A DNA stretch of 64,000 nucleotides from Erythrobacter litoralis (lineage in GTDB: Bacteria; Pseudomonadota; Alphaproteobacteria; Sphingomonadales; Sphingomonadaceae). Shown here in pieces: positions 1-14,619 of this stretch. The stretch lies in the NCBI RefSeq assembly GCF_001719165.1, contig NZ_CP017057.1, positions 2,970,501 to 3,034,500 on the forward strand. Reading direction: 5' to 3'. Below the pieces are notes generated by a model. The model worked only from the letters and a program-made list of their open reading frames with translations. It searched no databases and was not told where the DNA came from. The first letter of the stretch is position 1; every line of letters starts with the position of its first letter. A program made the translations under genes and the position numbers.

Positions 1-408
1 AAATCCAAGAATTCGAACAATGTCTGGAATTCGATCCTCGAGCGGGGCGGTTCGGTCCAGCATCTCGAATTCCTCACCGCTGAGGAAAAGGCGACGTTCA
101 AGACCAGCTTCGAGATCGACCAGCGCTGGCTGCTCGAATTCGCCGCCGACCGTTCGCCCTATATCGACCAGGCGCAGTCGCTGAACCTGTTCATCCCGGC
201 CGACGTCGACAAGTGGGACCTGATGATGCTGCATTTCCAGGCGTGGGAGAAGGGCATCAAGTCGCTCTATTACCTGCGGTCGAAGAGCGTGCAGCGCGCA
301 GGCTTCGCCGGCGGGGTCGAAGCGGACAACACCGCCGAACTGTCGAAGTTCGAACTGAACGCGGCCGGCGAACAGACCGATTACGAGGAGTGCCTGAGCT
401 GTCAATAG
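1..408 (+). CDS. nrdA: Ribonucleoside-diphosphate reductase alpha subunit, class Ia, C-terminal part
   Basis: Open from the first base of the window in frame 1, so the start lies outside. The large subunit reduces ribonucleoside diphosphates to deoxyribonucleotides together with NrdB, whose gene lies at 9514-10560. The visible 135 residues match the end of the alpha subunit: a segment around SPYIDQAQSLNLF, then WEKGIKSLYYLRSK, and a C-terminal tail ending ECLSCQ. In this family the tail cysteine pair relays electrons from thioredoxin/glutaredoxin to the active site and is essential. The last three codons and stop (AGC TGT CAA TAG) lie on or beyond the junction of an inserted element; the displaced native version (AGC TGC CAG TAA) is at 7669-7680. 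The protein is therefore intact although its 3' end and downstream terminator were replaced. Confidence 0.95.
   Translation, partial: KSKNSNNVWNSILERGGSVQHLEFLTAEEKATFKTSFEIDQRWLLEFAADRSPYIDQAQSLNLFIPADVDKWDLMMLHFQAWEKGIKSLYYLRSKSVQRAGFAGGVEADNTAELSKFELNAAGEQTDYEECLSCQ
396..408 (+). other. Left attachment junction (attL) in nrdA
   Basis: GAGCTG at 396-401 followed by TCAATAG. The bases after the core belong to the element but encode Cys-Gln-stop in the nrdA frame, differing from the right junction only at synonymous or stop positions. This is the left border of the element. Confidence 0.75.
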
Positions 409-482
409 TAATGTTGTGCTGTGTCTCATTCTATGGAACAGGATGGGACTGCGGTCAATAAATAACTTGAAAAAGTGAGAGA

Positions 483-528
483 GTGTGTCCTCATGAAGCG
501 GGAAACCCCGTAACCCATGAGGACACAC
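483..528 (+). promoter_or_regulatory. 13-bp inverted repeat overlapping the recombinase A ribosome binding site
   Basis: Arms GTGTGTCCTCATG (483-495) and CATGAGGACACAC (516-528) are perfectly complementary across a 20-base spacer. The right arm contains AGGA (520-523), the only Shine-Dalgarno-like sequence 9 bases before the TTG at 533. In RNA read in from nrdA the arms would pair and hide this site. No T-run follows, so it does not look like an intrinsic terminator. It could also be a recombinase binding site, or both. Confidence 0.6.
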
Positions 529-532
529 CGTC

Positions 533-1804
533 TTGCGTCTGGCTTTCGTCAATCCTGATCTTCTCGATCAATCGGTCGACGAGGCGCTCATGCCGGATGA
601 GCTCGAACGGTTCTGGCATGATCGGGCCAGCCCGTTGGCGAAGTCACTCTACGCCAGGATCGGGATCACTGAACGAGTCCCCTTCGTCCTCGACCAGTAT
701 TCCAATCCTCCTCAAATCCATCCTCAGTCCTCCAGCGTCCTACGCAAGATGACCGAACAAGTGCCCGGGCGGACCACCATGCGGACCTATGGTCAGCACG
801 TCCTCAGATTCGTCGCTACGCTAGCCGAGGATGGTGGAGATCTGGCGACTGTCGATCCGGGATACCTTTCCCAATACCGGGCTCGCCGCCTGGCGAGCGC
901 AACGCCTCAGGGAAAGTCCCTGGATCCTGTTTCCTGGAACTCCGAGGCTGCCGCGCTGAAGACCATGTTCGATGCGGCCGTCCTCCTGCGTCTGCGTCCG
1001 GATAACCCGACAGAGCATCCGGCGTTGCAGTGGTCCTACAAGGGGGCCGGAGCCATGTTCGAAGAACCGAAGTTCATCACGCTCGACCGCTTCCGCATCT
1101 TCCGGGACGACGGTCTGATGGTGACCAGATCGCCGTTGCGCAACGCCGCTTTCGCCGAAACCATCCTGACGTCCGGCATGCGTCTCTACGAATGCAGCAG
1201 GATGCCTGCCACGGCTGTTCCTCCTCGCAACGATAACAATGGCGGTAGAGCTTTCACCTATCCGGTCCCTGCGATCGACGGGAAGGGCCACCGCGCCCGG
1301 AAAGTGCCAGTCGGCATCCACGCTTTCCGCCGTCTTCAAGCATATCAGCAACTCGAGCGACTGCCGGCGCTCGAACGCAAGGGGCTTTCGGCGTCCCTAA
1401 CTCCGCTGTGGCTCAACCAATCCGGTGGCCTCATGGGGATCGGCGGCTGGGAGAAGGTCTTCGAGAACGCATCCGAACGATCGGGCGTCAAGGTGACGCC
1501 GCATACCCTCAGGCACACCTTCGCGGTCTACATGCTCTGTGCGCTCCTGCGTCGTCATCATGACAGCATGAAGATCAAGGACGACGTCAGGCGCCTCACA
1601 GAAGGCGGTCGCAGCGATGTCTACGCGACGATCTTCGGAGACCCCCTCCGCGCCCTCCAGCGTCTCCTGGGCCACAAGCACTACGAGACGACCTTCATCT
1701 ACCTCGACATCCTCAGCGCCGACGATTTCGTCATCGACGAGGCGCTGCGGATCTTCGAGGACACCCTCGGATCGGAGGAGGACTACCTTGACCTCATCCG
1801 CTGA
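533..1804 (+). CDS. Tyrosine recombinase A of the element (TnpA-like)
   Basis: A 423-residue site-specific recombinase that would cut and rejoin DNA at the element ends. The N-terminal half has a SAM-like core-binding domain (about residues 75-160). The catalytic domain shows the family residues: Arg217 in ILTSGMRLYE, His324 and Arg327 in HTLRHTF, His381 in LLGHKH and the nucleophile Tyr390 in TTFIYL, so it looks fully active. The start is a TTG at 533 preceded by AGGA with 9-base spacing; an ATG at 590 is the alternative and would lose 19 residues. Its stop overlaps the start of the next recombinase by 17 bases, implying translational coupling. It corresponds in position to TnpA of Tn554 but is longer than the 361 residues of that protein. 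Confidence 0.9.
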   Translation: MRLAFVNPDLLDQSVDEALMPDELERFWHDRASPLAKSLYARIGITERVPFVLDQYSNPPQIHPQSSSVLRKMTEQVPGRTTMRTYGQHVLRFVATLAEDGGDLATVDPGYLSQYRARRLASATPQGKSLDPVSWNSEAAALKTMFDAAVLLRLRPDNPTEHPALQWSYKGAGAMFEEPKFITLDRFRIFRDDGLMVTRSPLRNAAFAETILTSGMRLYECSRMPATAVPPRNDNNGGRAFTYPVPAIDGKGHRARKVPVGIHAFRRLQAYQQLERLPALERKGLSASLTPLWLNQSGGLMGIGGWEKVFENASERSGVKVTPHTLRHTFAVYMLCALLRRHHDSMKIKDDVRRLTEGGRSDVYATIFGDPLRALQRLLGHKHYETTFIYLDILSADDFVIDEALRIFEDTLGSEEDYLDLIR

Positions 1805-3515
1805 CCACAGGAACGAAGCGTCCGATGACAGTCTCCCGCCGAGGCTCGGGCGGCCGCGACGAAAAGTCCCGACGCTCGACCGGGGTGGAGTCCTCCAGTT
1901 CCCCACCCGATCAAATCCAAGCGATTGGCGGCATCGCCATTTCGAACGGAAGAACCCACTGAACTGGGACTTCGCTTCGGTGCGTCCCGCCCTCGGCAGG
2001 GCCATGCTCGATGCGGTCCACAGGATGTCCGGACCCGGCAAGGCCATCGCCACCGGATCGACGGCCCTGGCCTACCAGACACAGAGCAAGCCCTTCTTCC
2101 TCTGGCTGGCAGAGACCGAAAAGGACGCGCGGGGTCAGGAGCCCGGCAAGGATGACACCATCCTCGGTCCCCAGATCGTCGAAGATTTCCGCATAGCCAT
2201 GGACCTGCGTGCGACGCTGGGGGAAGTCACCGGCACCACCGCCTATGCCTACAAGGCCGCGCCGCTGCGGATCCTGCGACAGCTTTATCTCGAGGACCCG
2301 GCAGTATTCGGCCCGGGCTGGCGCGACGAGGACTTCCTTCCCGGCGAGCGGATTGACGATACGAAGCCCAACGCGCCCTATTCGCTCGCCGAATCGCAGC
2401 GCATCATCAGCGCCTGCGCGGCCATACTGCACCGAACCCACGATAGTGGTGACCCCGGGGACAGGGCGGTCATGGAGATCGCCGCCTTCGTCATCATCGG
2501 CCTAAAGCTCGGGATCGAACTAGAATGCCTTCCCGCGCTCACCCTTGCGAACCTCAAGACCGATGGGCGGCGCATCAAGGTGCGCTACATCAAGCGACGC
2601 GGCGGTGGCGGGAACGGTTTCCGCAAGAGCCGGACAACCAACCCGAGCGACGGAGGCCTCGACACCGAGGAGGAGGCCATCGCGGACGGGACCTCGTTTC
2701 GGGAAGCCGCTGGGGTCCTCGCTCTCCTACGGGATCGAGCCAGAGAGAGGCAGGCCGAGGATGGCGGAACCGACGACGCGACACCGCTGTTCACTTTCCA
2801 CTGCGCCGCCGATGCCTTCAGGGCAATCAGCGACCATCTCAACGAAAGCGGCCTACGAGACGATCACGGCGGGCGATTGCCGATCGTTAGGAACAGGCTG
2901 CGCCCGACATGGCGCACCCAGCGCACGATCAGGCATGGAGGCCGACTGTCAATCGACAGGTCGGACAACTCGGCCGACGTGCGCGCCAAGCACTATCTCG
3001 ACAACGACCGTATCCGACCCTTCCTCGAGAACGCGGTCCTGGACGCGCAGGCGCAGGCTTGGGACCATGCGCTTTCCAGGAGGGTCATCGATCTTCCGAA
3101 CGACGCATCCGACGACCAGGTATCCGCAGCCGCACGGAAGGCCGAAGTCGCCGAGAACGACATCGCAACCGCGCTGTCCGGCGAGCAGGACCTGTGGCTC
3201 GCCAGCTGCCGCGACTTCACGAATTCCCCGTTCGACAAGCCGGGGACACCCTGCTCGAAGGCCTTCTTCGGCTGCGTGGTCTGTCCCAACGCTCTGATCA
3301 CGCGTCGATCCCTGCCCGCGATCCTCGGCTTTCGGGCGCACGTGGAGCGGCGCCGCGACGAGATGGGGTCGCCCGAGTGGGAGGCCCTCTACGGCGCTGC
3401 GTGGCGTGAGATCACCCATGCCATCCTACCCCAGTTCGACAAACGCACCGTCGCAGAGGCGGAAACGATCGCCAAGGGTCTGGATATGCATCTTCCTCCC
3501 GAGATGCTGCAATGA
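1788..3515 (+). CDS. Tyrosine recombinase B of the element (TnpB-like)
   Basis: A 575-residue protein of the phage-integrase superfamily. I place the start at TTG 1788, seven bases after GGAGGAG and 17 bases inside the upstream gene; the open frame extends further upstream but only as an overlap of gene A. The C-terminal half has the end of a recombinase domain, with a candidate nucleophile Tyr403 in VRAKHYLD. The usual first arginine box appears as LGIELECLPAL, with Glu where most members have Arg, so catalysis may be impaired or use another residue. A cysteine pattern follows near the end (C-x3-C at SKAFFGCVVC), suggesting a metal-binding tail. It ends 4 bases inside gene C (ATGA overlap), continuing the coupled operon. 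Confidence 0.82.
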   Translation: MTSSADHRNEASDDSLPPRLGRPRRKVPTLDRGGVLQFPTRSNPSDWRHRHFERKNPLNWDFASVRPALGRAMLDAVHRMSGPGKAIATGSTALAYQTQSKPFFLWLAETEKDARGQEPGKDDTILGPQIVEDFRIAMDLRATLGEVTGTTAYAYKAAPLRILRQLYLEDPAVFGPGWRDEDFLPGERIDDTKPNAPYSLAESQRIISACAAILHRTHDSGDPGDRAVMEIAAFVIIGLKLGIELECLPALTLANLKTDGRRIKVRYIKRRGGGGNGFRKSRTTNPSDGGLDTEEEAIADGTSFREAAGVLALLRDRARERQAEDGGTDDATPLFTFHCAADAFRAISDHLNESGLRDDHGGRLPIVRNRLRPTWRTQRTIRHGGRLSIDRSDNSADVRAKHYLDNDRIRPFLENAVLDAQAQAWDHALSRRVIDLPNDASDDQVSAAARKAEVAENDIATALSGEQDLWLASCRDFTNSPFDKPGTPCSKAFFGCVVCPNALITRRSLPAILGFRAHVERRRDEMGSPEWEALYGAAWREITHAILPQFDKRTVAEAETIAKGLDMHLPPEMLQ

Positions 3516-5508
3516 ACGCGCATTCCGGCCATATCCGGGCTCACGATGAGCGAGGCCAGCGGTCGCCCTACAGCGAATCGCCCATCCTCCTGCGTCGTCC
3601 CGACCTCACTGGTCGGTTCCAAGCGATGATCTGGGATCTGACGGAGACGGATCACCATTCCGGCCGTGCCGAATCGATCTGCCGGATCGACTGGAACGAC
3701 GTCGGCGCGAACCACCCGGGCTGGCTCGCAATCTGCAAGGAACTGTGCTGGCACCGGCTGAACACGCCGTTGGCGACGCAGAAGACGATCGGCAGCTACC
3801 ATGCCTCCCGCGAACAGCTGAGAATGAAGCGGTTCCTGCGTTGGCTGGACGTCAAGCATCCCGATGTCGCGGGTCCTCAGGACCTCCGCCAGCGGCACGT
3901 CCACGAATATCGGGTATGGTTGGAAAACCATGTACCGGAAGATGCGGTCCCCGCATCCGGCGCGAACGTGCGGACGGGTTCCTCCTGCAGTCCGCAGACC
4001 GTCTGGAGCTATCTCCTCCCGATCAAGGCGCTCGACGTCTTCCGTGAACGCCTGAGTTCCCCGCTGCCATTCTCTCCCTATGACGGCAACCTGACCGCAA
4101 AGATGCTCGGCGCCGGCGAGACCAGCGAGGAGAACACGACCGAACCCCTTCCGGACAAGGTCATCGCGACGCTCATCGACTGTGCGCGACGCTATCTCGA
4201 GCACTATGCCCCCACCGTCCTTGCGATGAGGATGGAGATGCACGCATTCTGGGATGATGGCAGAGCCGATTTTCCGGCTGGAAGACATCACCTGGCACCT
4301 GCCCTGAGACGGGCATCACCTGGATGCCGGACCGCAAGAAGGCGGCGCACCATCTCTACCGCGAGGAACTCGGCCATCTCGTCGCCGCCTGCCTCGTCGT
4401 GATCCTCTACCTATCCGGAATGAGGCCGGGGGAGGCCAGCAACCTCGGTTCCGACTGCCTCGACCGTCCAGTCGACAAGGCTACCGGCCTCCGCGACCGC
4501 TGGCGCATAAGCGGCATTCCGCTGAAGAAACGCGGCAAGGGCAAGGAGGGCAAGCCGCCACCCGTCGACTGGGTGGTCCCCGATATCGTCGCCCAGGCCG
4601 TGCAGATGCTGCAGAAGCTACTGGCGCCATACCGCACGATGCACGGGTCGGATCTGCTCATGCTGAGCAAGGATGCCCTACGCAAGCCCAAGCCGCGAGA
4701 CAGGAAGCTGCTGCGTTCATCGAAGACCGGCTATCCACTGTCCGTCACGTCCATCGGAAGCCTGATCAACCTCTTCTACGAACGGGCGAGATGGCAGCGG
4801 GACGCGATCGCCCAGACAGACGCGAGCCTCACCCAGGCACCCGATTATCACATCAAGCCGAGCCAGTTCCGGCGCACGCTCGCGAGGTTCATCGCGAGGC
4901 AGCCCTTCGGCATCATCGCAGGGCGCCTCCACTATCATCATGTCTCCACGGCCGTCTTCGAAGGATACGCGGGCTCCATCTCCGACACCTTCGCGCTCGA
5001 TGTCGAAGACGAGCGCATCCTCGCGGGCATCGACATTCTCGAGGAGATGAGGAGCGATGCCCAGGCAGGTTGGCGGGCCGGTCCGGGCGCCAGCCGCGTG
5101 CTGGCTGAATGGGAGGACGTGCGCGAAGTGGGGCTCGCTGCGGCCGTGGTTGACACGTCCTCGAAGGGGGCGGTTCTCGACAACAGCGTGCGCAAGCTCG
5201 TCCAGACGGTCCATGTCGGCAGCCTGAGCTACTGCGTGTTCAACGTGAGCAACGCGCTCTGCCTGACGGAACGGGCAAAGTCCTCACCGGGCGCATCCCC
5301 GGCGATAAGTATGTGCTCTCCGGATAAATGCGCCAACGCAGTGATCGCGCCCTGTCACGTTCCGAAGTGGCAGGGACTGCTGGAGGAGGTCCAGAGACTG
5401 TCAGGAACCGCCCGGAGCGGGCCGCAGAAACAGTCACTCAGGATCGCCATCGAAAGATACGAAGGGGTGATCGCCAAGGCACAGGGAGGTGAGAATGGAA
5501 AAGATTGA
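3512..5508 (+). pseudogene. Tyrosine recombinase C of the element, two single-base frameshifts
   Basis: Two open frames (3512-4402 and 4324-5508) are the N- and C-terminal parts of one recombinase. Between them a third frame reads MMAEPIFRLEDITWHLP. Removing one G from GGG at 4251-4253 and one C from CCC at 4302-4304 joins all three parts into one frame of about 664 codons. The N-terminal part has a core-binding domain. The C-terminal part has the catalytic arginine (LYLSGMRPGE), a lysine-rich hairpin (PLKKRGKGK), FRRTLARF in the HxxR position and the probable nucleophile in FEGYAG, followed by a cysteine/histidine tail that may bind zinc. Both shifts are +1 in homopolymers, so either decay or sequencing error is possible. 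The stop overlaps the next gene. Confidence 0.8.
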
Positions 5509-5980
5509 CCAGACCTCCTTCGAGGACCTCAGGAAGGACAATGCGGACCGCCTTCACGAACTCGATGTCCTGGCGGGAGGAGGCGACCTTCGCGGAACGG
5601 AATCGACCGAAAGGACGATCCGGGCCGGCATCGATCGCTTCTGCCGCGGGACGACGCAGACGGACGGCTCCTGGACGGTCGTGAACTTGGTCGAGGAGAC
5701 CGGCGTTCCCCGACCAACGCTTTATCGCTACAAGCGCGAACTCGAACTCTTCCAGAATCTTGGCGCATCGGCTCCGCACGGCGGCGCGCGCGAAGAGCTG
5801 AAACGCCTACGGAGCGAATTGGCAACAGAACGCGAAGCGGCGAAGGCGGAACGCGCGCGACACCGCAATACCGAAGCCGTCCTCGTGGAGCGCATCCATG
5901 CGCTATCCCTACTGGTGGCTTCGGCAATGGGAGAGGATTCGCTGCCGCGCATGATCGAGCTTAGAAAGCCTCCGGAATGA
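5495..5980 (+). CDS. TnpC-like small protein of the recombinase module
   Basis: A 161-residue soluble protein. The start is ATG 5495, preceded by GGGAGG and lying 14 bases inside recombinase C; a GTG six bases earlier is possible. Residues about 57-83 (TVVNLVEETGVPRPTLYRYK) look like a helix-turn-helix. The C-terminal half, rich in Glu, Arg and Ala (REELKRLRSELATEREAAKAE), should be a coiled coil. Position and size fit TnpC of Tn554, a small accessory protein that influences the efficiency and orientation of recombination, and the DUF6262-type proteins found behind recombinase clusters. The assignment rests on context and architecture. It is the last gene of the coupled recombination operon. 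Confidence 0.75.
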   Translation: MEKIDQTSFEDLRKDNADRLHELDVLAGGGDLRGTESTERTIRAGIDRFCRGTTQTDGSWTVVNLVEETGVPRPTLYRYKRELELFQNLGASAPHGGAREELKRLRSELATEREAAKAERARHRNTEAVLVERIHALSLLVASAMGEDSLPRMIELRKPPE

Positions 5981-6029
5981 GACCGGATCGCAGGAGATGT
6001 CACGGGTAAAAGGTTAGGAGGAGGGAAAA

Positions 6030-6068
6030 GGCACCCCTGCAGCCTGACGTCAGTACCGAAGGGGTGCC
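6030..6068 (+). repeat. Stem-loop with nested palindrome between recombination module and cargo
   Basis: GGCACCCCT (6030-6038) and AGGGGTGCC (6060-6068) form a perfect 9-bp stem. The 21-base loop contains the 10-base palindrome CTGACGTCAG (6044-6053). It lies in the 173-base gap between the TnpC-like gene and the cargo pair. It may separate transcription of the two modules or bind a protein; there is no T-run of an intrinsic terminator. Confidence 0.5.
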
Positions 6069-6153
6069 GTGGGGAATCCAGACATAGAAGATTCCAGTTC
6101 ATCGCCCTATATCCGTGATGAAGAACGCAACGTAGAAAAGAGGAGGCTCTCAC

Positions 6154-6336
6154 ATGGCGGATCAGAGTTTCAGCCAATCCGACAGGGCCAGGGAAAAGCA
6201 GGCCGCGCGCGACCTCGATGAACGCGATCTCGTCGCCGGACGCATCGATGTAGCTTCGCTCCAAGAGCGCAACGGTTTCATCCCTCGTAACCTCGCTCGG
6301 CGCGCAAGAGTCCGTCAATGGAATGAGATCGATTGA
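6154..6336 (+). CDS. 60-residue cargo protein coupled to nucleotidyltransferase
   Basis: A short, highly charged, soluble protein (MADQSFSQSDRAREKQ... ending VRQWNEID) that I do not recognise. A strong Shine-Dalgarno (GAGGAGG) stands 8 bases before ATG 6154, and the stop TGA at 6334-6336 lies only 5 bases before the ATG of the nucleotidyltransferase (overlapping its alternative TTG start at 6333). No transmembrane segment, signal peptide or cysteine is present; it is rich in Arg, Asp and Glu and likely helical. The size, order and coupling to a downstream nucleotidyltransferase are those of an antitoxin or regulatory partner in toxin-antitoxin pairs, but nothing in the sequence itself proves this. 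Confidence 0.7.
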   Translation: MADQSFSQSDRAREKQAARDLDERDLVAGRIDVASLQERNGFIPRNLARRARVRQWNEID

Positions 6337-6341
6337 TCGCC

Positions 6342-7166
6342 ATGCCTGACGTCCTTCCACAGAGCATCGTGGAGAAGGTCATGGACCTGACCGCTCCCGT
6401 GGAGGGCGCGCTGCTGGTCGGAGGTCAGGCATTGAATTTCTGGGCCGAGCGCTACAGCGAGAAGGCTCCCGAACTGTCGGACTATGCTCCATTCGTTTCG
6501 AAGGATATCGATTTCTTCGGAACCGGGACCGTCGCGGCAAAGATCGCCGAAAGACTCGGTGGCCGCGTCCAGTATCCCAAGGAGAACGACCATACACCGA
6601 ATGCAGCAGTCGTGCATGCAACAATCGAGGGTCACGAACTCGAGATCGACATCCTGTCGAACGTCATAGGTCCACCTGCCGACAAGCTACTCAAGCAGAT
6701 GGTGATCATGGACTTTCCAATGCGGTCCGGCGGCGATGAGACCGCCATAGCCCTCGCAGTCATGCATCCTCTACACTGCCTCCAGAGCAGGGCTGCCAAC
6801 GTGATTACCTTGGGAAGAAAATACGATGTCGCAAAACGCCAGCTGAATGCCGCACCAATCGTGCTTCGCGAATACATCTCCGAGGCCTTGGGCGATGGGT
6901 CGGACCCTAATCGAACGCGCGTTGCCACGTCGGTCCTGAAGTCCCTCGACGCATACCTCCAGACCGATATCGTAGGTCGCCGTCTACATATGCGGATGAA
7001 GAACAACCCGCTAGGTGTCATAAGGGCCTTTGAAGGCGATCCGAGGCTGGACGAACGCTATCGAGAAAATCAGCTCAAACGGATGATCACCGACATTTCC
7101 GCCCGTCAGGCAAGGGATCGCAACCAGATGGCAGCGGTCGCCATGGGGCAAGGCATTCCTCGATAA
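6342..7166 (+). CDS. Nucleotidyltransferase of AbiEii-like architecture (element cargo)
   Basis: A 274-residue protein with the signature of the DNA polymerase beta-type nucleotidyltransferase fold: the glycine pair in LLVGGQALNFW (Gly27-Gly28), the metal-binding DID in SKDIDFF (Asp55, Asp57), and a third acid in LEIDIL (Asp103). This family transfers a nucleotide to a protein, RNA or small molecule. Members with this layout, such as AbiEii, act as toxins in phage defence. The C-terminal half is helical with no recognised domain. ATG 6342 is the likely start; a TTG at 6333 overlaps the stop of the 60-residue gene. As the only cargo of a mobile element, a defence or addiction role is plausible, but resistance or housekeeping functions are not excluded. 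Confidence 0.75.
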   Translation: MPDVLPQSIVEKVMDLTAPVEGALLVGGQALNFWAERYSEKAPELSDYAPFVSKDIDFFGTGTVAAKIAERLGGRVQYPKENDHTPNAAVVHATIEGHELEIDILSNVIGPPADKLLKQMVIMDFPMRSGGDETAIALAVMHPLHCLQSRAANVITLGRKYDVAKRQLNAAPIVLREYISEALGDGSDPNRTRVATSVLKSLDAYLQTDIVGRRLHMRMKNNPLGVIRAFEGDPRLDERYRENQLKRMITDISARQARDRNQMAAVAMGQGIPR

Positions 7167-7219
7167 CCATAAGTGCGAGATCGACGGCGGTCTCAGTTCC
7201 GGGCTGTCTGACCGCATAA

Positions 7220-7489
7220 CACTCGCTTGAAAGTCGGCTCCGTATACTCTCCGCGAGGATCGGAGCGAACCGCCCCCAACAACACACATCGCGTCTTCCC
7301 GCGGAGGCCCTCGCCTCCGCGGTGCTTCGACGTGCCCACCTCGAAGTCCTCGATCAACCCGATCTGGCCGATATCGATGATGTGACCGTCGACGACATCA
7401 CGACCGATGCCGACGGAAGAAGCGTTCTCTACCTTCGCTCTCGCCGGACTTCACTGCCGTTTCCCGACGAATTCCGGAGGGCGGAGTGA
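7220..7489 (+). pseudogene. Open frame without start, possible gene remnant
   Basis: Between the cargo and the right end (7167-7593) no complete gene is visible. One frame stays open for 89 codons from after TAA 7217-7219 to TGA 7487-7489, with good codon pattern near the end (LEVLDQPDLADIDDVTVDDI, then SLPFPDEFRRAE) but no ATG; a GTG at 7322 is the only usual start. It could be the truncated C-terminus of a lost cargo gene, or chance in GC-rich DNA. Confidence 0.3.
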
Positions 7490-7593
7490 GACAGAGAAGC
7501 CATGATTTAACCTTGGAGAACTGGCGACCTTGTCCTAGAATCAGGATGAAAGTCATTCTCCGCCCAACCGATCGAATGACAGGAGAAAGATCA

Positions 7594-7680
7594 ATGAACA
7601 CCCCGTTGCACAAATGCACCCGGCAGGTGCGCAATTGCGCAGTGAGATACCCTCACATTCTAACTAAGAGCTGCCAGTAA
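7594..7680 (+). CDS. Possible 28-residue peptide running across the right junction
   Basis: ATG 7594 follows AGGAG at good spacing and opens a 28-codon frame (MNTPLHKCTRQVRNCAVRYP...) that ends in TKSCQ-stop. The last three residues and the stop are the displaced native nrdA codons at the right junction, so any peptide would be a host-element fusion. It may only be the chance result of the element preserving the reading frame at its end. Confidence 0.3.
   Translation: MNTPLHKCTRQVRNCAVRYPHILTKSCQ
7628..7641. repeat. 14-bp perfect palindrome near the right element end
   Basis: TGCGCAATTGCGCA is self-complementary and lies 27 bases inside the right core. It is followed by GTGAG-ATACC-CTCAC, another short inverted repeat. 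Subterminal repeats of this kind are typical recombinase binding sites; the left end has no copy of this exact sequence. Confidence 0.45.
7668..7680 (+). other. Right attachment junction (attR) with displaced native nrdA end
   Basis: GAGCTG at 7668-7673 followed by CCAGTAA. In the nrdA frame this is the native Ser-Cys-Gln-stop, now 7.27 kb from the rest of the gene. The chromosome resumes here: a terminator follows at 7721 and core genes after that. Confidence 0.75.
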
Positions 7681-7720
7681 GCATCGGGCAGTAGGCATTG
7701 CGCTCCTGCCCTCGGCAACC

Positions 7721-7759
7721 AAAACCCCGCCCGGCCCCGCATGGCCCGGCGGGGTTTTT
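7721..7759 (+). terminator. Intrinsic terminator, originally downstream of nrdA
   Basis: AAAACCCCGCC (7721-7731) pairs with GGCGGGGTTTT (7748-7758) over 11 bp, followed by TTTTT within the arm. It lies 41 bases after the native nrdA stop at 7678-7680, so before the insertion it would have ended the nrdA transcript. Confidence 0.85.
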
Positions 7760-7789
7760 GTTTACCATCACCTGCTAGGATCGCGCGCC

Positions 7790-8140
7790 ATGAGAAACCG
7801 CCGTTCCCAGCGCGTTCCGACAAGCGCCACCGGCTCGTGCCGGACGGCGCGCGGGATGCAGTGGGACATCCACCTCGAAGACCTGTCCTGCGGCGGCTGC
7901 CGGGTGGAAGACCCGCGCGGCGGGATGGCTCTCGGGGAATTCGTCCGCCTGTTCATCGCCGGGACCGGGCCGCATATCGCCGAAGTCGCATGGCGACAGG
8001 GCAGCCGCGTGGGGCTGGAATTCCAGACCCCGCTGCCCGAACGGATCTTCGCCCTCCTCGCCGAGGGACGCTGGGACGATGCAAAGCACGCCCTCGCCGA
8101 TCCGCGCCATTTCGGCTTCGCGCGGCGTTCCTGCCTTTAG
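7790..8140 (+). CDS. PilZ domain protein
   Basis: A 116-residue single-domain protein. The PilZ signature of cyclic-di-GMP receptors is present: an N-terminal arginine cluster (RNRRSQR) and DLSCGG in the D/N-x-S-x-x-G position, followed by a beta-barrel ending GSRVGLEFQTPL. It would bind c-di-GMP and influence an unknown partner. The start is ATG 7790, 30 bases after the terminator stem. It stands alone before a 158-base gap. The window contains a second PilZ protein at 27400-27798 with the same simple layout. Confidence 0.85.
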   Translation: MRNRRSQRVPTSATGSCRTARGMQWDIHLEDLSCGGCRVEDPRGGMALGEFVRLFIAGTGPHIAEVAWRQGSRVGLEFQTPLPERIFALLAEGRWDDAKHALADPRHFGFARRSCL

Positions 8141-8298
8141 GCCTGCCTCCAGGCCTGCCCTTACGCCTGCCTTTCCGGGATCACCGCGAAAAGGCGCGCA
8201 ATTCGCGATGCGCCGCATGCACTCGCCAAGCCCTGCGGCCTGTGACATAGTTTCGCCGCCGCTGAAATTGCGCGGCGTGACAAAGGGGAAGGAATGCC

Positions 8299-8481
8299 AT
8301 GGGTCTGCCGTTCTGGGCGGGTGTTTTCGGTGCTGTCGTCTCGATCGTTTTTCTCATCCGCGCATGGCTCGAACTGCGCCGGAACCGCGAAGGTCACCTG
8401 CGCAACGCGGCGATGATCCATGTCGGCATGGCGGGACTGTTCCTTCCCGCCTGCCTCGTCATCATTCTCGCCTACATGTGA
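8299..8481 (+). CDS. Small inner-membrane protein, 60 residues
   Basis: Two hydrophobic segments (about residues 5-22, FWAGVFGAVVSIVFLIRAW, and 41-59, HVGMAGLFLPACLVIILAY) separated by a charged loop (LELRRNREGHLRN). A purine-rich Shine-Dalgarno (AAGGGGAAGGAA) precedes the ATG. No family recognised. It is followed after two bases by a lipoprotein gene, so the two are probably co-transcribed. The gap 8141-8298 before it contains only imperfect GCCTGCCT repeats at about 8130-8176. Confidence 0.7.
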   Translation: MGLPFWAGVFGAVVSIVFLIRAWLELRRNREGHLRNAAMIHVGMAGLFLPACLVIILAYM

Positions 8482-8483
8482 CC

Positions 8484-8774
8484 ATGCGCGCCGCCCCCCG
8501 CCTGATCGCCGCCCTGGCGCTTGCACTCTTGGTGTCTGCCTGCGCGCGGCAGGTCGATGCGGGGGTCAGCGAAGCCGCCGGCACGCCCGGTTTCTGGTGG
8601 GGCCTGTGGCACGGCTTCATCTTCCCATGGGCGTGGATCGGCTCGCTGTTCTCGGACCAGATCGCGGTTTACGCCGTCCCCAACCGGGGCGGGTGGTACG
8701 ATTTCGGCTTCTTCGTCGGCATCACCGTCCTTGGCGGGGGGAGCTTCTTCGGCTCCCGCTCCCGCAAGGACTAG
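8484..8774 (+). CDS. Small lipoprotein, 96 residues
   Basis: The N-terminus is a lipoprotein signal (RLIAALALALLVSAC, lipidated Cys20). The mature part is aromatic-rich with two further hydrophobic stretches (FWWGLWHGFIFPWAWIGSLF and FGFFVGITVLGGGSFFG), suggesting it lies against or in the membrane. The start ATG 8484 was chosen because it gives the signal peptide directly. Similar small proteins with this WGLWHG pattern occur widely in bacteria without a known function. It is two bases downstream of the 60-residue membrane protein and convergent with the next gene. Confidence 0.75.
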   Translation: MRAAPRLIAALALALLVSACARQVDAGVSEAAGTPGFWWGLWHGFIFPWAWIGSLFSDQIAVYAVPNRGGWYDFGFFVGITVLGGGSFFGSRSRKD

Positions 8775-8778
8775 ATGC

Positions 8779-9147
8779 CTATTTCCCGCCGAGCGGGCGC
8801 GCCGCATCGGTGCGCACGCGGGTCGCGGGGTCGTCTTCGCTGTTGCCCAGGGCGACCGGATCGATCGCTCCGCCGACCGAACCGAAGCCCATTTCGGCCG
8901 CCGGGGCGTCGTCTGCGGCATCCTGTCGGTCGGGGTCTCCGTCGTCGCGGGCTTCCTGCCTGTATCCGGGCTTGTATTCGCCGGGCGCGAGATCGCCCAT
9001 GACGCTGTCGGGCGCGCCCTCGCGGCGATAGCCCGGTTCGGCCGGACCGCTGCGCTCGGGCTCCATCGGATGGGTCGAAGGCGTCAGCGTGATGTTGCGC
9101 GAATCCCCATCCGGAAAGGGGCCGGTTACGGGATCGTTCTTCGCCAT
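8779..9147 (-). CDS. Hypothetical acidic protein, 122 residues
   Basis: A hydrophilic, Pro-, Gly- and Asp-rich protein without signal peptide, membrane segment or recognisable domain; probably intrinsically disordered. AGGAGA stands 9 bases before ATG 9147, a good ribosome binding site, which supports this strand over the overlapping plus-strand frames. It contains short repeated motifs around PGYRRE and PGYRQE (about residues 38 and 60). It is convergent with the preceding lipoprotein and divergent from nrdB. Confidence 0.6.
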   Translation of the reverse strand: MAKNDPVTGPFPDGDSRNITLTPSTHPMEPERSGPAEPGYRREGAPDSVMGDLAPGEYKPGYRQEARDDGDPDRQDAADDAPAAEMGFGSVGGAIDPVALGNSEDDPATRVRTDAARPLGGK

Positions 9148-9268
9148 TGGTGTTCTCCTGTCGATGTGTTTGTCGTCGAATCAATCCGGCAGGGGAGGAC
9201 GGCGTTCCGAGAAAGTCGCTTGCGATCATGGATATCGGCCATGAACGCGGCGCAAGTGCGCAGGCCCG

Positions 9269-9301
9269 GCGCATGGCCAGCGCATGGCCAGCGCATGGGC
9301 A
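9269..9301. repeat. Three tandem 11-bp repeats upstream of nrdB
   Basis: GCGCATGGCCA at 9269-9279 and 9280-9290, and GCGCATGGGCA at 9291-9301. They lie in the 366-base gap (9148-9513) between the divergent genes 8779-9147 and nrdB, which otherwise shows only GC-rich sequence and no convincing NrdR box. They could be a protein binding array or simple slippage. Confidence 0.45.
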
Positions 9302-9513
9302 GCGCCCGATCCGCGCCGATCCGACCGCTCACTTGCACGCCGCGCACCGCGCGATGATGCGTGCCCTGCATCGGACGAGGCGCACCGCTTTACCCGGACT
9401 CGATTCGACTCAGGAAATGCACGGCTTATCCCCACCGAATCATACGCGCTTGCCTTCGATTCCGTAGTTTGTTTCCCTACATAGGAAGCGCACTCAAACT
9501 CAGGGGACACAAG

Positions 9514-10560
9514 ATGTCGTTGCTCGAAGCCCGCAAGACCTACAAGCCGTTCGAATATCCGTGGGCATACGACTTCTGGAAACGCCAGCAGCAGATCCAC
9601 TGGATGCCCGAGGAAGTCCCTCTGGGTGAGGATTGCCGCGACTGGGCGCAGAAGATCACCGATCACGAGCGCAACCTGCTCACCCAGATCTTCCGCTTCT
9701 TCACCCAGGCCGACGTCGAGGTGCAGAACTGCTACCACGACCAGTACGGCCGCGTGTTCAAGCCGACCGAGGTCAAGATGATGCTCGCCGCCTTCTCCAA
9801 CATGGAGACGGTGCACATCGCCGCCTATTCGCACCTGCTCGACACGATCGGGATGCCCGAAAGCGAATACAGCGCCTTCCTCGAATACGAGGAGATGAAG
9901 GACAAGCACGATTTCCTCCAGCAGTTCGGCGTCGACACCGACGAGGACATCGCCCGCACGCTCGCCGTGTTCGGCGGCTTCACCGAGGGGCTGCAGCTGT
10001 TCGCGTCCTTCGCCATGCTGATGAACTTCCCGCGCCACAACAAGATGAAGGGCATGGGCCAGATCGTCAGCTGGTCGGTCCGCGACGAATCGCTCCACTG
10101 CGAAGGCATCATCAAGCTTTTCCACGCCTTCTGCGAGGAACGCGGCTGCCTGACCAAGGCGGTGAAGGAGGACATCATCGACATCTGCCAGAAGACGGTG
10201 CGGCTGGAGGATGCCTTCATCGACCTCGCCTTCGAGATGGGCCCGGTCGACGGGATGAGCCCGAAAGAGATCAAGAAGTACATCCGCTACATCGCGGACT
10301 GGCGCCTGAACCAGCTCGGCCTGCCGCCGATCTACATGGTCGAGGACCACCCCCTGCCGTGGCTCGCGCCGCTGCTGAACGGGGTCGAGCACGCCAACTT
10401 CTTCGAAACGCGCGCGACCGAATATTCCAAGGGCGCGACGCGCGGCAACTGGAACGACGTGTGGTCGAGCTTCGACAAGCGCCAGAAGGCAAAGGCGGTC
10501 AACGAGGACGGCGTCGAGGGCGACGGCCCGGACATGTTCGGAGTTGAGGCTGCGGAGTAG
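9514..10560 (+). CDS. nrdB: Ribonucleoside-diphosphate reductase beta subunit, class I
   Basis: A 348-residue radical-generating subunit that works with NrdA. Di-iron ligands and the radical tyrosine are visible: Asp67 (FFTQADVE), Glu98 and His101 in ETVHIAAY with Tyr105 as the probable radical site, Glu158 (GGFTEGLQ), and Glu192 and His195 in RDESLHCEG. ATG 9514 is preceded by CAGGGGACAC; a longer frame from 9361 has no ribosome binding site and adds unrelated residues. In this genome nrdB is separated from nrdA by about 1.8 kb of native genes plus the 7.27-kb element. The C-terminus (DMFGVEAAE) would contact NrdA. Confidence 0.95.
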   Translation: MSLLEARKTYKPFEYPWAYDFWKRQQQIHWMPEEVPLGEDCRDWAQKITDHERNLLTQIFRFFTQADVEVQNCYHDQYGRVFKPTEVKMMLAAFSNMETVHIAAYSHLLDTIGMPESEYSAFLEYEEMKDKHDFLQQFGVDTDEDIARTLAVFGGFTEGLQLFASFAMLMNFPRHNKMKGMGQIVSWSVRDESLHCEGIIKLFHAFCEERGCLTKAVKEDIIDICQKTVRLEDAFIDLAFEMGPVDGMSPKEIKKYIRYIADWRLNQLGLPPIYMVEDHPLPWLAPLLNGVEHANFFETRATEYSKGATRGNWNDVWSSFDKRQKAKAVNEDGVEGDGPDMFGVEAAE

Positions 10561-10561
10561 G

Positions 10562-10577
10562 GCTTTGTATACAAAGC
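10562..10577. promoter_or_regulatory. 16-bp perfect palindrome just after nrdB
   Basis: GCTTTGTATACAAAGC begins two bases after the nrdB stop. The TTGTATACAA centre resembles operators of GntR/MarR-type repressors. The 206-base gap to the next gene (10561-10766) also contains a stem CTCCCTTC/GAAGGGAG at 10686-10708 without a T-run. It may be an operator or the nrdB mRNA end. Confidence 0.45.
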
Positions 10578-10766
10578 ATTATATTGAATCAGACAGGGCA
10601 GCCCAAAGTTCATCTTTTCGGCTGAACCTCATTCCCCGGCCTTCCCGCTTTCGCGCGGATCACGTTGGTGGGAGCGGCACAGTCCTCCCTTCACGCGAGG
10701 AAGGGAGATTGCGGCACCATCCCACGCGCAACCATTCCTAAACCGCTTCGCCCGAAAATCCCGGCG

Positions 10767-11060
10767 ATGGACCTCACCGCGCTGCTCACGCCGGCCAATA
10801 TCCCCGTCGCCGTAGTGGCGGTGAACGTCCTCGCCTTCGCCGCCTTCGGGATCAACAAGGCGCCCGCCGGGCAGGGGATGCGGCGGATTTCCGAGGATAC
10901 GCTGCTCCAGCTGGCCTTCCTCGGCGGGGTCGCGGGGGCCTATGCCGGGCGGGAGCTGTTCCGGCACAAAACGCGAAAGCAGCCGTTCAGCAACCAGCTT
11001 CACATGATCGCCGGGCTCCAGCTGTGCGCGGCGGCGTTCATGACCGTCTACCTGTGGTAG
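10767..11060 (+). CDS. DUF1294 family small membrane protein
   Basis: A 97-residue protein with three hydrophobic segments: about residues 10-28 (ANIPVAVVAVNVLAFAAFG), 47-60 (LQLAFLGGVAGAYA) and 79-95. The pattern NK-P-G-RRISE and GG-AGAYAGRELFRHKTRKQPF is characteristic of DUF1294 (PF06961), whose function is unknown. The start is ATG 10767, which gives the domain from its first residues; a longer frame exists but lacks support. The region after it, 11061-11278, contains no gene that I can support. Confidence 0.85.
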   Translation: MDLTALLTPANIPVAVVAVNVLAFAAFGINKAPAGQGMRRISEDTLLQLAFLGGVAGAYAGRELFRHKTRKQPFSNQLHMIAGLQLCAAAFMTVYLW

Positions 11061-11278
11061 CGCTCAACACCACGCCCGCCACGCGCCAATCGCCTCAACG
11101 CATCGTCCAACCCACCCCGAAACCCTACACAGCCTCCTGTCGGACTCCCCGAGAGTCCAATCCAACCCGGCACCCCTCCCGCACGCGGCGCGGCCCGTAC
11201 CACCCCCTTCGGCAGGGCGCATGACCGACGCGAACCAACGCCCAACAGCTCCGCCGCGCGGGGGCCTAGAACGCGCCT

Positions 11279-11848
11279 TCAGCACCATTCGCGCCGCGGG
11301 CCGCCCCAGCGCATGGCGAGGCCTTCGCGCACCAGCGCTTCGCCCAGGCTTTTGCCATCGCGCAGCACCACGCGAAGCGCGCGGCCATAACGGTCCGTCT
11401 CCCGGCCCGAGGGGCTGGGGGCGAGGGTGAATTCGCCCGCATTGAGCAATTCCTGCAGCCGCCGCGTCGCGCGCTCGCCCAGCGCCGCCTCGCGCGGGCA
11501 GGAGGGGCGGGAAACCTCGGGCGCGTCGATGTCGGCGATGCGGATCTTCGTGCCGCGATACCAGATCGTGTCCCCGTCGACGACGCAGGTGACGCGCCTC
11601 GATCCGGCGCAGATCGGGAAGAAGGCGCGCTCGGCCCCGCGGGCAGCACCGGGCATGCCCGCCGAAACCTGCGCCCCGGCATCGTTCGACCCGCCCGGGC
11701 CGGGGGCGAAGAAGAGGCCCAGGAACGCCGCTCCGGGAAGCGCCACCATCACCGCCCCGAACCAGCGCCCGCGAGGCTGCCTGTTCGAGGTCACGAGGCG
11801 CAGGTGGCTGCGCCGCGAACCTTTGCCGAATGATCCCATGTCCGACAT
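11279..11848 (-). CDS. Thermonuclease (SNase)-like protein
   Basis: A 189-residue protein with a positively charged N-terminus, one membrane anchor or signal segment (about residues 30-50, FGAVMVALPGAAFLGLFFA) and an extracytoplasmic staphylococcal-nuclease domain. Family residues are present: CVVDGDT, the arginine and acid in KIRIADIDAPE, and DRYGRALR. These correspond to the calcium-binding and catalytic positions of micrococcal nuclease, so DNA/RNA hydrolysis in the periplasm is plausible. Two cysteines flanking the core (Cys in FPICAG and VTC) could form a disulfide. It has a paralogue at 14698-15270 with the same arrangement. Confidence 0.85.
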   Translation of the reverse strand: MSDMGSFGKGSRRSHLRLVTSNRQPRGRWFGAVMVALPGAAFLGLFFAPGPGGSNDAGAQVSAGMPGAARGAERAFFPICAGSRRVTCVVDGDTIWYRGTKIRIADIDAPEVSRPSCPREAALGERATRRLQELLNAGEFTLAPSPSGRETDRYGRALRVVLRDGKSLGEALVREGLAMRWGGPRREWC

Positions 11849-12005
11849 GGCTTGGGTCTGGCCGCGAAATCCTCAAGATTGACTGAACGCGAAATGCGGG
11901 AGCATTCGCAAGGCGGATATTCGGCGCACCGGCTTGACCCATGTCAAAGACGCCCTGCCAGCCCCGGCATAGCATCCTCATCACCACCAATAGGGGAGAA
12001 CACGC

Positions 12006-12281
12006 ATGTCCGCTCACACGCCGCACGAACTCGCCGACGAATTTCCGCACGATGCCGACGTGCTCCACCGGCTCAAGCTGGGCGATGCGCATTTCAACAG
12101 CCTTGCCTCGCGCTATCACGCGGTAAACCGGGCGATCCACCGGGTCGAAAGCGAGATCGAACCGGCGAGCGATGAATACACCGAACAGCTCAAGCGCCGG
12201 CGCCTTGCCCTGCTCGACGAGATCGCGCTGATGGTCGAAAGGGCAGAGGGCAGGTTCGCCCCGGAAACCGCCCATGCCTAG
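12006..12281 (+). CDS. YdcH family protein (DUF465)
   Basis: A 91-residue soluble, mostly helical protein. The motif FNSLASRYHAVNRAIHRVESE followed by LKRRRLALLDEI is the DUF465/YdcH hairpin of two helices found in many proteobacteria; function unknown. ATG 12006 follows AGGGGAGAA. A second short reading frame overlaps its 3' end by 8 bases. Confidence 0.85.
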   Translation: MSAHTPHELADEFPHDADVLHRLKLGDAHFNSLASRYHAVNRAIHRVESEIEPASDEYTEQLKRRRLALLDEIALMVERAEGRFAPETAHA

Positions 12282-12420
12282 CCTGCCTGGCCGTGCGCGC
12301 GGGCCGCTATCGGGCCTGAAACGCCGCATCCGCCGCCAGAACCGCCGCCGCGCGGCGATGATGGCGCTCGTCGGCAGCGCGATGCTGGCGCGCACGGTCA
12401 TGAAACGCGCCCGCGCCTAG
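12274..12420 (+). CDS. Arg-rich 48-residue protein overlapping YdcH
   Basis: ATG 12274 overlaps the YdcH stop (12279-12281) and opens 48 codons: a basic N-terminal half (GRARGPLSGLKRRIRRQNRRRAA, of which 11 residues are Arg or Lys) and a short hydrophobic helix (MMALVGSAMLA). It may be a basic membrane-associated peptide or a nucleic acid binding peptide, translated by coupling. No family recognised. It is followed by a terminator at 12517. Confidence 0.5.
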   Translation: MPSLPGRARGPLSGLKRRIRRQNRRRAAMMALVGSAMLARTVMKRARA

Positions 12421-12516
12421 GCCCGCCGGGCGCGCGCGAAAGAACATCCCTTCCCCGTCGCCTTTGAAGAAACGGGGGGTCTGCACTCCGAAGATCCCAC
12501 GGAGCGGCAGGCCTGT

Positions 12517-12550
12517 GGGCGGCGCATGAGGCGATGCGCCGCCCCATTTT
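12517..12550 (+). terminator. Intrinsic terminator after the YdcH operon
   Basis: GGGCGGCGCAT (12517-12527) pairs perfectly with ATGCGCCGCCC (12534-12544) around a 6-base loop and is followed by CATTTT. It separates the YdcH pair from the lipoprotein genes. Confidence 0.75.
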
Positions 12551-12632
12551 CGTGCCCGCAATCCGCAGATTCCCCTTTCGCTCCCCCCTTGCGCTGCGTT
12601 ACCCATTCGCGCGCAGCAAGGAGGATGCCGCC

Positions 12633-12890
12633 ATGACTTATAATGCCCGCCCCGCCCTGACGCTCGTTCCCGCACTTGCGCTCGCGCTCGCCGCCTGCGC
12701 CGGGGAAGAAGAGGAACGCAATTACGAAGTCGATGCCGAGGACCTGTCGGGCGGCGAATTGCAGGTTCGCGAACCCGATCCGAACGAAGTCCCGGTCGAT
12801 GTGCCCGAGGTCGAAATGACCAATGTCCCGCCCGAGGAAGCCGAGGCGATGGAACAGGGGGCGATGGAACAGGGAGCTTCGTACGAATAG
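12633..12890 (+). CDS. Small acidic lipoprotein, 85 residues
   Basis: Signal peptide with lipobox LALAAC (lipidated Cys22), followed by a strongly acidic, probably disordered mature part rich in Glu, Pro and Asp, ending in a duplicated EQGAMEQGA. ATG 12633 stands 8 bases after AGGAGG. It is followed by a second gene of the same design at 12966-13250, separated by 75 bases; the two are likely related by duplication in form, although the mature sequences differ. Function unknown. Confidence 0.75.
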   Translation: MTYNARPALTLVPALALALAACAGEEEERNYEVDAEDLSGGELQVREPDPNEVPVDVPEVEMTNVPPEEAEAMEQGAMEQGASYE

Positions 12891-12965
12891 ACCGCCCGCA
12901 TCCCCCTATGCGGGGGCCGCGGATCGGAACGGGCAGCGGCGAGGCGCGTAAGGTCATCGAAGGAG

Positions 12966-13250
12966 ATGACGATGAACCACGCCCGCAACGATACCGAAAC
13001 GAAGCGCGCTGCGCTCGTTCCCCTGGCGCTGGCCTCGATCCTGGCGCTCGCCGCCTGCGGTCCCGAAACCGAAGAGACCGCGCCGCTCGGTGAAAGCGCC
13101 GAGGCGGACATCGTCGGGTCCGAGCCGGTCGATGACCACGAGCAGGGCGAATCGCCCGAGGCGATCAACGATCCCACGAATGAGGGGCCGCCGCTCATCA
13201 ACCAGACCGGTCCCGACCGCGACGACGGGATAGACGTGGAAATCGAATAG
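12966..13250 (+). CDS. Small acidic lipoprotein, 94 residues
   Basis: Signal peptide with lipobox LALAAC (Cys31 from the first ATG). The mature part (GPETEETAPLGESAEADIVGS...) is acidic, low in hydrophobic residues and probably disordered. AAGGAGA precedes ATG 12966; the ATG at 12972 is an equally possible start. Same size class and composition as the preceding lipoprotein gene. It is followed by a sulfotransferase gene after 51 bases. Function unknown. Confidence 0.72.
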   Translation: MTMNHARNDTETKRAALVPLALASILALAACGPETEETAPLGESAEADIVGSEPVDDHEQGESPEAINDPTNEGPPLINQTGPDRDDGIDVEIE

Positions 13251-13301
13251 GCATATCCGGCTGGAGAGCGTCCCGCCTTCCCGGGCGCCGAAGGGGGGGA
13301 T

Positions 13302-14228: not shown

Positions 14229-14235
14229 CAGGCGG

Positions 14236-14619
14236 TCAGAACAGCAGCGTCGCCGGGTCCGGCATGGGTTCGCGCTTCTGCGCCTTGACGAGGCTGAGCA
14301 CGCTGCGCACCCCGGCCCAGACGGCGATGACCGGGAATAGCAGGAATCCGATCAGAACGAAGCTGAGCAGGCCCGCGATCAGGCTCGCGATGAGGCCGAA
14401 CCAGAAGGTGCGGATGAGATAGCCGAAATGCGAATCCGCCCATGCCTCGCGGTTGTCGCCGCGCCAGACATGGGCAAGCACGATGCCGATCAGCCCGGAG
14501 ATACCGGTCGCGAAGCTGAGCAGGTAGAGCAGCGCGATGACGGTCGGCTGGTTGAAATCGAATCCCGATCCCTGGGGCGGGCCGCCGCTTGACGGTTCGG
14601 TCGGTTCGGTCGTGGTCAT
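14236..14619 (-). CDS. DUF4870-type membrane protein
   Basis: A 127-residue protein with three or four membrane helices after a Pro/Gly-rich cytoplasmic start: about residues 27-50 ([25 protein letters not shown]), 68-83 and 84-108. The helical layout and the segment HVWRGD...[13 protein letters not shown] are typical of the small membrane proteins grouped in DUF4870/YIP-like families. Function unknown. It ends 7 bases from the sulfotransferase stop (convergent). Confidence 0.7.

Follow-up and report, generated by a model that had tools for sequence, protein, structure and literature searches.

A tyrosine-recombinase island with four operon genes inserted at the 3' end of nrdA in Erythrobacter litoralis

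At the start of the 64,000-nucleotide stretch of Erythrobacter litoralis DNA analysed here (contig NZ_CP017057.1, positions 2,970,501 to 3,034,500, hereafter the window), the gene nrdA, which encodes the class I ribonucleotide reductase (RNR) alpha subunit, has two endings. The window starts within the gene, and the reading frame reaches the hexamer GAGCTG at 396-401 and continues as TCAATAG. The hexamer is met again at 7668-7673, where it is followed by the host tail CCAGTAA at 7674-7680. In the nrdA frame the left junction reads TGT CAA TAG and the right junction TGC CAG TAA. What is the DNA that separates these two endings, and how does the gene tolerate it? The 7,266 bp from 402 to 7667, located inside the last codons of nrdA, form a tyrosine-recombinase island whose four genes stand in the order known from the strand-biased circularizing integrative elements (SEs), next to the genomic islands with three integrases (GInts). 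Probably this is a non-conjugative, site-specific integrative element from a lineage with its attachment site at the last bases of nrdA. A preliminary description of this DNA had placed an insertion in the last nrdA codons with GAGCTG at both ends, and its coordinates are correct to the base. The features of the two junctions are as follows.

1..408, plus strand: 3' part of nrdA (Pfam PF02867, NCBIfam PRK09102); host bases to 401, the last seven coding bases (T CAA TAG) being the element's
396..401, plus strand: attL 6-bp spacer GAGCTG, host nrdA sequence (Leu wobble base, Ser codon, TG of Cys); the same 6 bp occur in 24 of the 29 other nrdA genes of the genus
402..428, plus strand: left terminal motif C (TCAATAGTAATG...GTGTCTCA), which completes Cys-Gln-stop; identical in two further copies (L033 and G1275, introduced below)
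7640..7667, plus strand: right terminal motif C' (...GTGAGATACCCTCACATTCTAACTAA), an imperfect inverted repeat of C
7668..7673, plus strand: attR 6-bp spacer GAGCTG, read here as the probable footprint of a previous host's nrdA; attR differs from attL in L033 and G1275, at wobble positions only
7674..7680, plus strand: displaced original nrdA end (C CAG TAA)

It is confirmed that the window's nrdA ending reflects an insertion rather than a natural gene end. For the same genus, 61 genomes were searched, of which 52 matched; 30 loci were returned including the window's own, and the other 29 were all read. Each of the 29 ends in Cys-Gln-stop with CAG as the Gln codon, specifically TGC CAG TAA (11), TGC CAG TAG (9), TGC CAG TGA (5), TGT CAG TGA (3), and TGT CAG TAA (1). 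The commonest of these is the window's right-hand tail. The left tail matches none of these forms, and the ending TGTCAATAG was absent from all 29 relatives. A PilZ-like gene, so named by eye, begins 10-163 bp past the nrdA stop in seven of the 29, and a weak PilZ-like match lies 357 bp past it in one more (L016). These relatives represent empty sites in the expected gene order, of the kind that the preliminary description had proposed seeking in related genomes. In all, 71 apparently unoccupied ends were read, their emptiness being judged from the few bases past the stop: the 29 above, 14 from a Roseomonas set, 27 from a Sphingomonas set, and L044. CAA is natural in five of them (L044, L059, L066, L070, and L102), with endings that include TGTCAATAA (L044), TGTCAATGA (L066), and TGCCAATAG (L070). 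The preliminary description had also asked whether TGTCAATAG exists as a natural ending; it was seen in none of the 71, though natural CAA ends occur and, as judged from its displaced tail, the G1275 host's own nrdA formerly ended TGC CAA TAG.

A scan of genome_contigs with an alignment of the first recombinase of the island, IntA, gave four loci: Qipengyuania citrea H150 (L033), a Sphingomonas metagenome-assembled genome (L034), Roseomonas sp. KE2513 (L035), and Sphingomonas sp. Ag1 (L036). In all four, nrdA ends ∼120-245 bp upstream of intA. One further copy, complete and at nrdA, was provided by a family-wide search of 397 genomes and belongs to a genus other than that of the window (G1275). 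All six loci of this IntA clade thus lie directly downstream of nrdA, and in none is the same stretch found at another locus. The IntA proteins are 35-99% identical among the pairs compared. The copies in the window, L033, and G1275 are complete, with sizes of 7.3-9.9 kb; those in L034, L035, and L036 are cut by contig ends. A search with the L033 NrdA (694 aa, E ≤ 1e-10) gave a single match in each of the six element-bearing genomes, and each insertion is therefore at the only nrdA copy found. The three outgroup loci inspected (one operon of a PsJN plasmid, a Klebsiella plasmid, and an IMG/VR contig), with IntA proteins 27-30% identical, are not at nrdA and have other left neighbours. A family targeting the constrained 3' end of nrdA and re-encoding its tail, as first proposed, is borne out at six of six loci, and the suggested search for further nrdA-end elements with the same left end yielded two more complete copies with identical left-end bases.

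The element core is 97.9% identical over 5,580 bp between L033 and G1275, compared with 84.5% over 1,494 bp for nrdA. Between the window and G1275, which belong to different genera, the corresponding values are 92.4% (5,579 bp) and 85.6% (389 bp). Because the identity of the element exceeds that of nrdA, the element seems to have reached the site after its hosts diverged, and horizontal movement into the same nrdA site is likely.

Starting at TCAATAGTAATG, all three complete copies have the same left end over the 45 bp compared, and their right ends share ...CATTCTAACTAA (terminal ...CTAACTAA). Together the two ends form an imperfect inverted repeat with 8 of the first 13 bp matching. In addition, 13-nt imperfect direct repeats, counted by eye, match at 10, 9, and 11 of 13 positions in the window, L033, and G1275, respectively. 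The left and right spacers are GAGCTG and GAGCTG in the window, CGCCTG and GGCATG in L033, and GGCTTG and GGCGTG in G1275. Ends of the SE type, namely an attB split between attL and attR, imperfect inverted repeats, and a 6-bp spacer, are accordingly present in three copies, with attB taken from relatives rather than from the same strain. In the nrdA frame the spacer corresponds to a Leu wobble base, a Ser or Ala codon, and the TG of Cys. All six spacers of the complete copies encode Leu-(Ala/Ser)-Cys, as do 40 of the 4096 possible hexamers, and the left and right spacers differ by three bases in two copies, all at positions 1 and 4, which are wobble positions. Coding selection does not explain the right spacer because it is not translated as nrdA. 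According to the SE footprint rule, as given in the pertinent passages of two papers (PMC10214605; PMC9345347), the target's 6 bp stay beside C and the donor-carried 6 bp go beside C'. Wobble-only differences are what would be expected under this rule if the right 6 bp come from the nrdA of the previous host. The right spacer of G1275, GGCGTG, was met five times among natural Sphingomonas ends; none of the 71 natural ends read has GGCATG, that of L033.

From the element, nrdA receives its Gln codon and stop together with the third base of the Cys codon before them. It had been claimed that the element rebuilds the tail of the enzyme with synonymous codons. The rebuilding applies to the Gln codon and the stop; to the Cys pair, the element contributes no more than the wobble base of the last Cys codon. 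Synonymy holds in the window, where Cys-Gln-stop is kept, but fails as a general rule, given that the Roseomonas copy ends in Cys-Ser. In the Roseomonas set all 15 genomes matched, and 15 nrdA loci were read with six further weak matches left unread. The 14 nrdA genes without element sequence past the stop all end in Cys-Leu-Ala-Cys-Gln, and the occupied one ends in Cys-Leu-Ala-Cys-Ser:

9747-9755 of L035: Roseomonas NrdA end, Cys-Ser

This tail represents a Gln to Ser change of the RNR imposed by the element. The Sphingomonas set comprised 56 genomes, 52 of them with a match, and gave 30 loci, of which two were unreadable by script and one was the occupied L036; the 27 ends read are all Cys-Gln.

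The left end of the element is occupied by an operon in the order IntA-Tfp-IntB-Srap, as in SEs, the fourth gene being assigned by position only.

533..1804, plus strand: IntA, a tyrosine recombinase of 423 aa with a TTG start (PF00589, 4.8e-11; XerC/D-like)
1788..3515, plus strand: Tfp-like protein (∼575 aa), predicted to fold as a tyrosine recombinase but lacking the catalytic set; the TTG start at 1788, picked by eye after relatives that begin MTSS, gives a 17-nt overlap with IntA
3512..5508, plus strand: IntB-like large recombinase, with a one-base frameshift near 4273 here and intact (665 aa) in L033
5495..5980, plus strand: small fourth protein of 161 aa in the Srap/GinD/TnpC position, so assigned by place and size; its only domain hit is a sub-threshold one to HTH_IclR

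Residues R217, R327, H328, H381, and Y390 of IntA are invariant in 15 aligned sequences. The second gene product has no Pfam match and no recognisable catalytic set in the alignment. Its AlphaFold model (mean pLDDT 67, pTM 0.44) gave the Tn1549 integrase (E 5.4e-4), Cre, and XerH as best Foldseek matches, with low TM-scores, and it is predicted to be a Tfp, with a recombinase fold lacking the RHRY set. The IntB family conserves SGxR, QFRR, H, and Y in 17 sequences, so that R, R, H, and Y are kept. In hhalign comparisons its profile aligned collinearly with the third gene (IntB) of the SE-type operon of pAQU1 at E 1.1e-7 and failed to match the second (E 0.04). This operon is presumably that of SE-Pda04Ya311, judging from the plasmid named in the literature and from the gene layout beside blaGMA-1. 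The frameshift near 4273, as seen against L033, is either decay or a sequencing error; in G1275 an open frame of 699 residues spans the position.

From these observations a route of integration can be proposed. The recombinases would bring the joined ends of a circular copy into synapsis with the end of nrdA, which serves as attB, and would cut around the 6-bp spacer that runs from the Leu wobble base over the Ser or Ala codon to the TG of the last Cys. The 6 bp of attB itself would stay at the left, and the circle would deliver its own 6 bp, a copy from the nrdA of the preceding host, to the right. The left arm C (TCAATAG...) would imitate the attB arm CCAGTAR that it replaces, and nrdA would therefore keep its Cys pair and stop. 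We infer the circular intermediate, the copy-out step, the strand bias, and the origin of the footprint. A bolder extension, which we offer tentatively and regard as somewhat doubtful, is that of an obligate nrdA-parasitic SE lineage in which the right spacer records the nrdA codons of the previous host, such that one genome would tell the origin of the element. As no empty site would remain after copy-out, the RNR tail would then be permanently replaced by codons of the element, in altered form (Gln to Ser) in one lineage.

Several other explanations of the locus must be weighed against a site-specific element of the SE order. It might be argued that nothing was inserted, and that a natural nrdA end is simply followed by an unrelated integrase cluster; the natural CAA ends of L044, L066, and L070 lend this some colour. 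A displaced second nrdA tail is found at the right end of all three complete copies, however, the terminal sequences are identical in three hosts, and the next host gene directly follows nrdA in relatives, which together leave that explanation with a vanishingly small probability. The Tn554-type element with a fixed short core envisaged in the preliminary description fares little better. A conventional cut-and-paste integrase island with a fixed and identical 6-bp core would account for GAGCTG at both ends of the window, but the spacers are unequal in two of the three complete copies. GAGCTG is, moreover, merely the commonest nrdA sequence of the genus at this place: it is native in 24 of the 29 relatives, and therefore its presence at the left is no signature of the element and the identical pair needs no fixed core. 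With 6 bp that vary between copies and four genes in the SE order, the fixed core was rejected, and the conventional island as a whole is quite improbable. The pattern of the spacers could also be explained by a need of the recombinase for near-identical spacers, and the proposed footprint origin draws on two copies with unequal spacers and three differing bases in all; both points count against the reading preferred here.

A more serious contender is a GInt in the strict sense, with a ginABCD operon. The four-gene operon at one end, the cargo past the fourth gene, the 13-nt imperfect direct repeats (10-17 nt in the GInt definition), and the 3'-end target all agree with it. Bardaji et al. (2017; PMC5385486), in the sections of that paper relevant here, describe P. 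aeruginosa PA_D16 as carrying GInts where its duplicated RNR-alpha genes end. They further describe six that lie at ssb ends and do not alter the product, together with putative gin operons in Alphaproteobacteria. By the published description, in a figure legend of Idola et al. (PMC10214605), the third gene (GinC) of GInts is without RHRY and the first two carry it. Here it is the second gene that lacks the set, the third keeping R, R, H, and Y, which sets the element apart from GInts. As far as the distribution passages of the same paper go, a PSI-BLAST survey detected SEs in Gammaproteobacteria alone, and Alphaproteobacteria had no ginC-ginD block. The latter speaks against a GInt, which we consider possible though rather less than probable, and the survey as a whole tells against an SE-order element in this class as well. 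To the same side of the balance belong the first His of the H-x-x-R motif, missing from IntB; the Tfp profile, which did not match the pAQU1 operon in hhalign (E 0.14 for Tfp and 0.92); the fourth protein, without a BLAST hit to the pAQU1 Srap at E 0.1; and the three copies in which only the left end is visible. The window copy, with its IntB frameshifted, may in consequence be immobile.

The element is rare in genomes. In overlapping sets, each counting its centre genome, it was found in 1 of 296 genomes for the order (E ≤ 1e-20), 1 of 385 for the class (1e-30), 2 of 397 for the family (1e-30), 1 of 398 for the phylum (1e-15), and 1 of 346 for the order to which the Roseomonas genome belongs (1e-30). 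Clusters of proteins sharing 93-97% identity with those of the window or L033 hold 18 (Tara) and 404 and 138 (ENA) member sequences, and metagenomes thus represent close relatives better than genomes do. No relative emerged from the IntA scan of viral_contigs, and the scans with Tfp and IntB both led to a single distant contig, away from nrdA; a viral origin was rejected on these grounds. For plasmid-borne nrdA, three of the 101 matching records were inspected by annotation, none with the element.

The copies also differ in cargo. Listed below are the remaining features of the window copy and the adjacent host gene.

6154..6336, plus strand: cargo, 60-aa protein without family match, candidate antitoxin (a guess from position); overlaps the next gene by 4 nt
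6333..7166, plus strand: cargo, 277-aa protein without family match, nucleotidyltransferase-like by motif and a candidate toxin
7346..7490, plus strand: remnant, the 3' end of a 511-aa cargo gene
7790..8140, plus strand: host gene, PilZ-like by eye, which follows nrdA in some empty-site relatives

The region 6154-7166 is 94.5% identical in DNA to the G1275 copy. L033 carries instead an AbiEii-like nucleotidyltransferase (Pfam PF08843) and the 511-aa gene, which is fully open there; 7326-7679 of the window matches 18600-18954 of L033 at 91%. Because G1275 has open frames matching the window pair and both L033 cargo genes, and all that is left of the 511-aa gene in the window is its 3' end, the shorter copies look like deletion derivatives. 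That the cargo pairs are addiction genes is a guess.

Several further loci deserve description. In the deposited contigs, the intA genes of both Sphingomonas copies (L034, 7807-9060, and L036, 10001-11260) contain an in-frame stop or frame break, which suggests decayed copies. The IMG/VR contig L053 has a related four-gene operon at 4881-12159 between two ArdC-like antirestriction genes (by eye), as if one had been split or duplicated. Plasmid pBPHYT01 (L037) carries two different four-gene recombinase operons in tandem, at 2851-8243 and 8974-14351. The record L044 (NZ_CP098495.1), named as a plasmid of Qipengyuania citrea E4, holds nrdA, nrdB, guaA, and nadB and looks like a chromid or a mislabelled part of the chromosome; its nrdA ends TGT CAA TAA, without the element.

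With respect to known systems, a literature search on nrdA as a target gave only Bardaji et al. (2017) as bearing on a target of this type. RITs, defined in the corresponding passage of Idola et al. (PMC10214605) as three recombinases of 315-410 aa, all with the catalytic Tyr, were rejected as a home for proteins of 423, ∼575, and 665 aa with a fourth gene. The four-gene operons on the Paraburkholderia PsJN and Klebsiella VA172 plasmids are collinear with the one described here (IntA ∼29-30% and IntB 29% identical) but are not next to nrdA. Tn554, the target of which is radC, shares with the present element one ordinary and one large recombinase and a small TnpC. It has three genes (tnpABC) and no Tfp counterpart, and a filing there was rejected for an element with four. 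The two also have in common a 6-bp footprint, in the portion of Idola et al. that describes it. GInts share the four-gene operon, the variable cargo, and 3'-end targets that keep the product (ssb), including the RNR-alpha ends in PA_D16; the element differs in its degenerate second, rather than third, recombinase and in its small size. Since GInts at RNR-alpha and ssb ends were reported in 2017 (PMC5385486, in the sections cited above), neither the target gene nor the repair of its tail is new.

The closest likeness is to the SEs, for which target and footprint data are given in the relevant parts of Nonaka et al. (2022; PMC9345347). With SE-6283 and SE-6945 (Nonaka et al. 2022; Idola et al. 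2023) the element has in common the order IntA-Tfp-IntB-small protein, an overlap of genes, a homologous IntB, imperfect inverted repeats at its ends, the behaviour of the 6-bp spacer, and few fixed targets. It differs in its alphaproteobacterial host, in nrdA as the target, and in a Tfp and Srap without detectable similarity to the one SE-type operon compared. What is new is an alphaproteobacterial lineage with the SE order, the use of nrdA over deep divergence, spacer differences confined to wobble positions, and one change of tail. SE-order elements are thereby extended to a class in which the survey passages cited above list none, with one target kept across IntA proteins only ∼35% identical. 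The spacer differences at codon wobble positions provide a natural test of the SE footprint rule, and it is evident how a mobile element, by encoding the final two codons and the stop anew, can reside in a class I RNR alpha gene of which a search of the genome detected no second copy.

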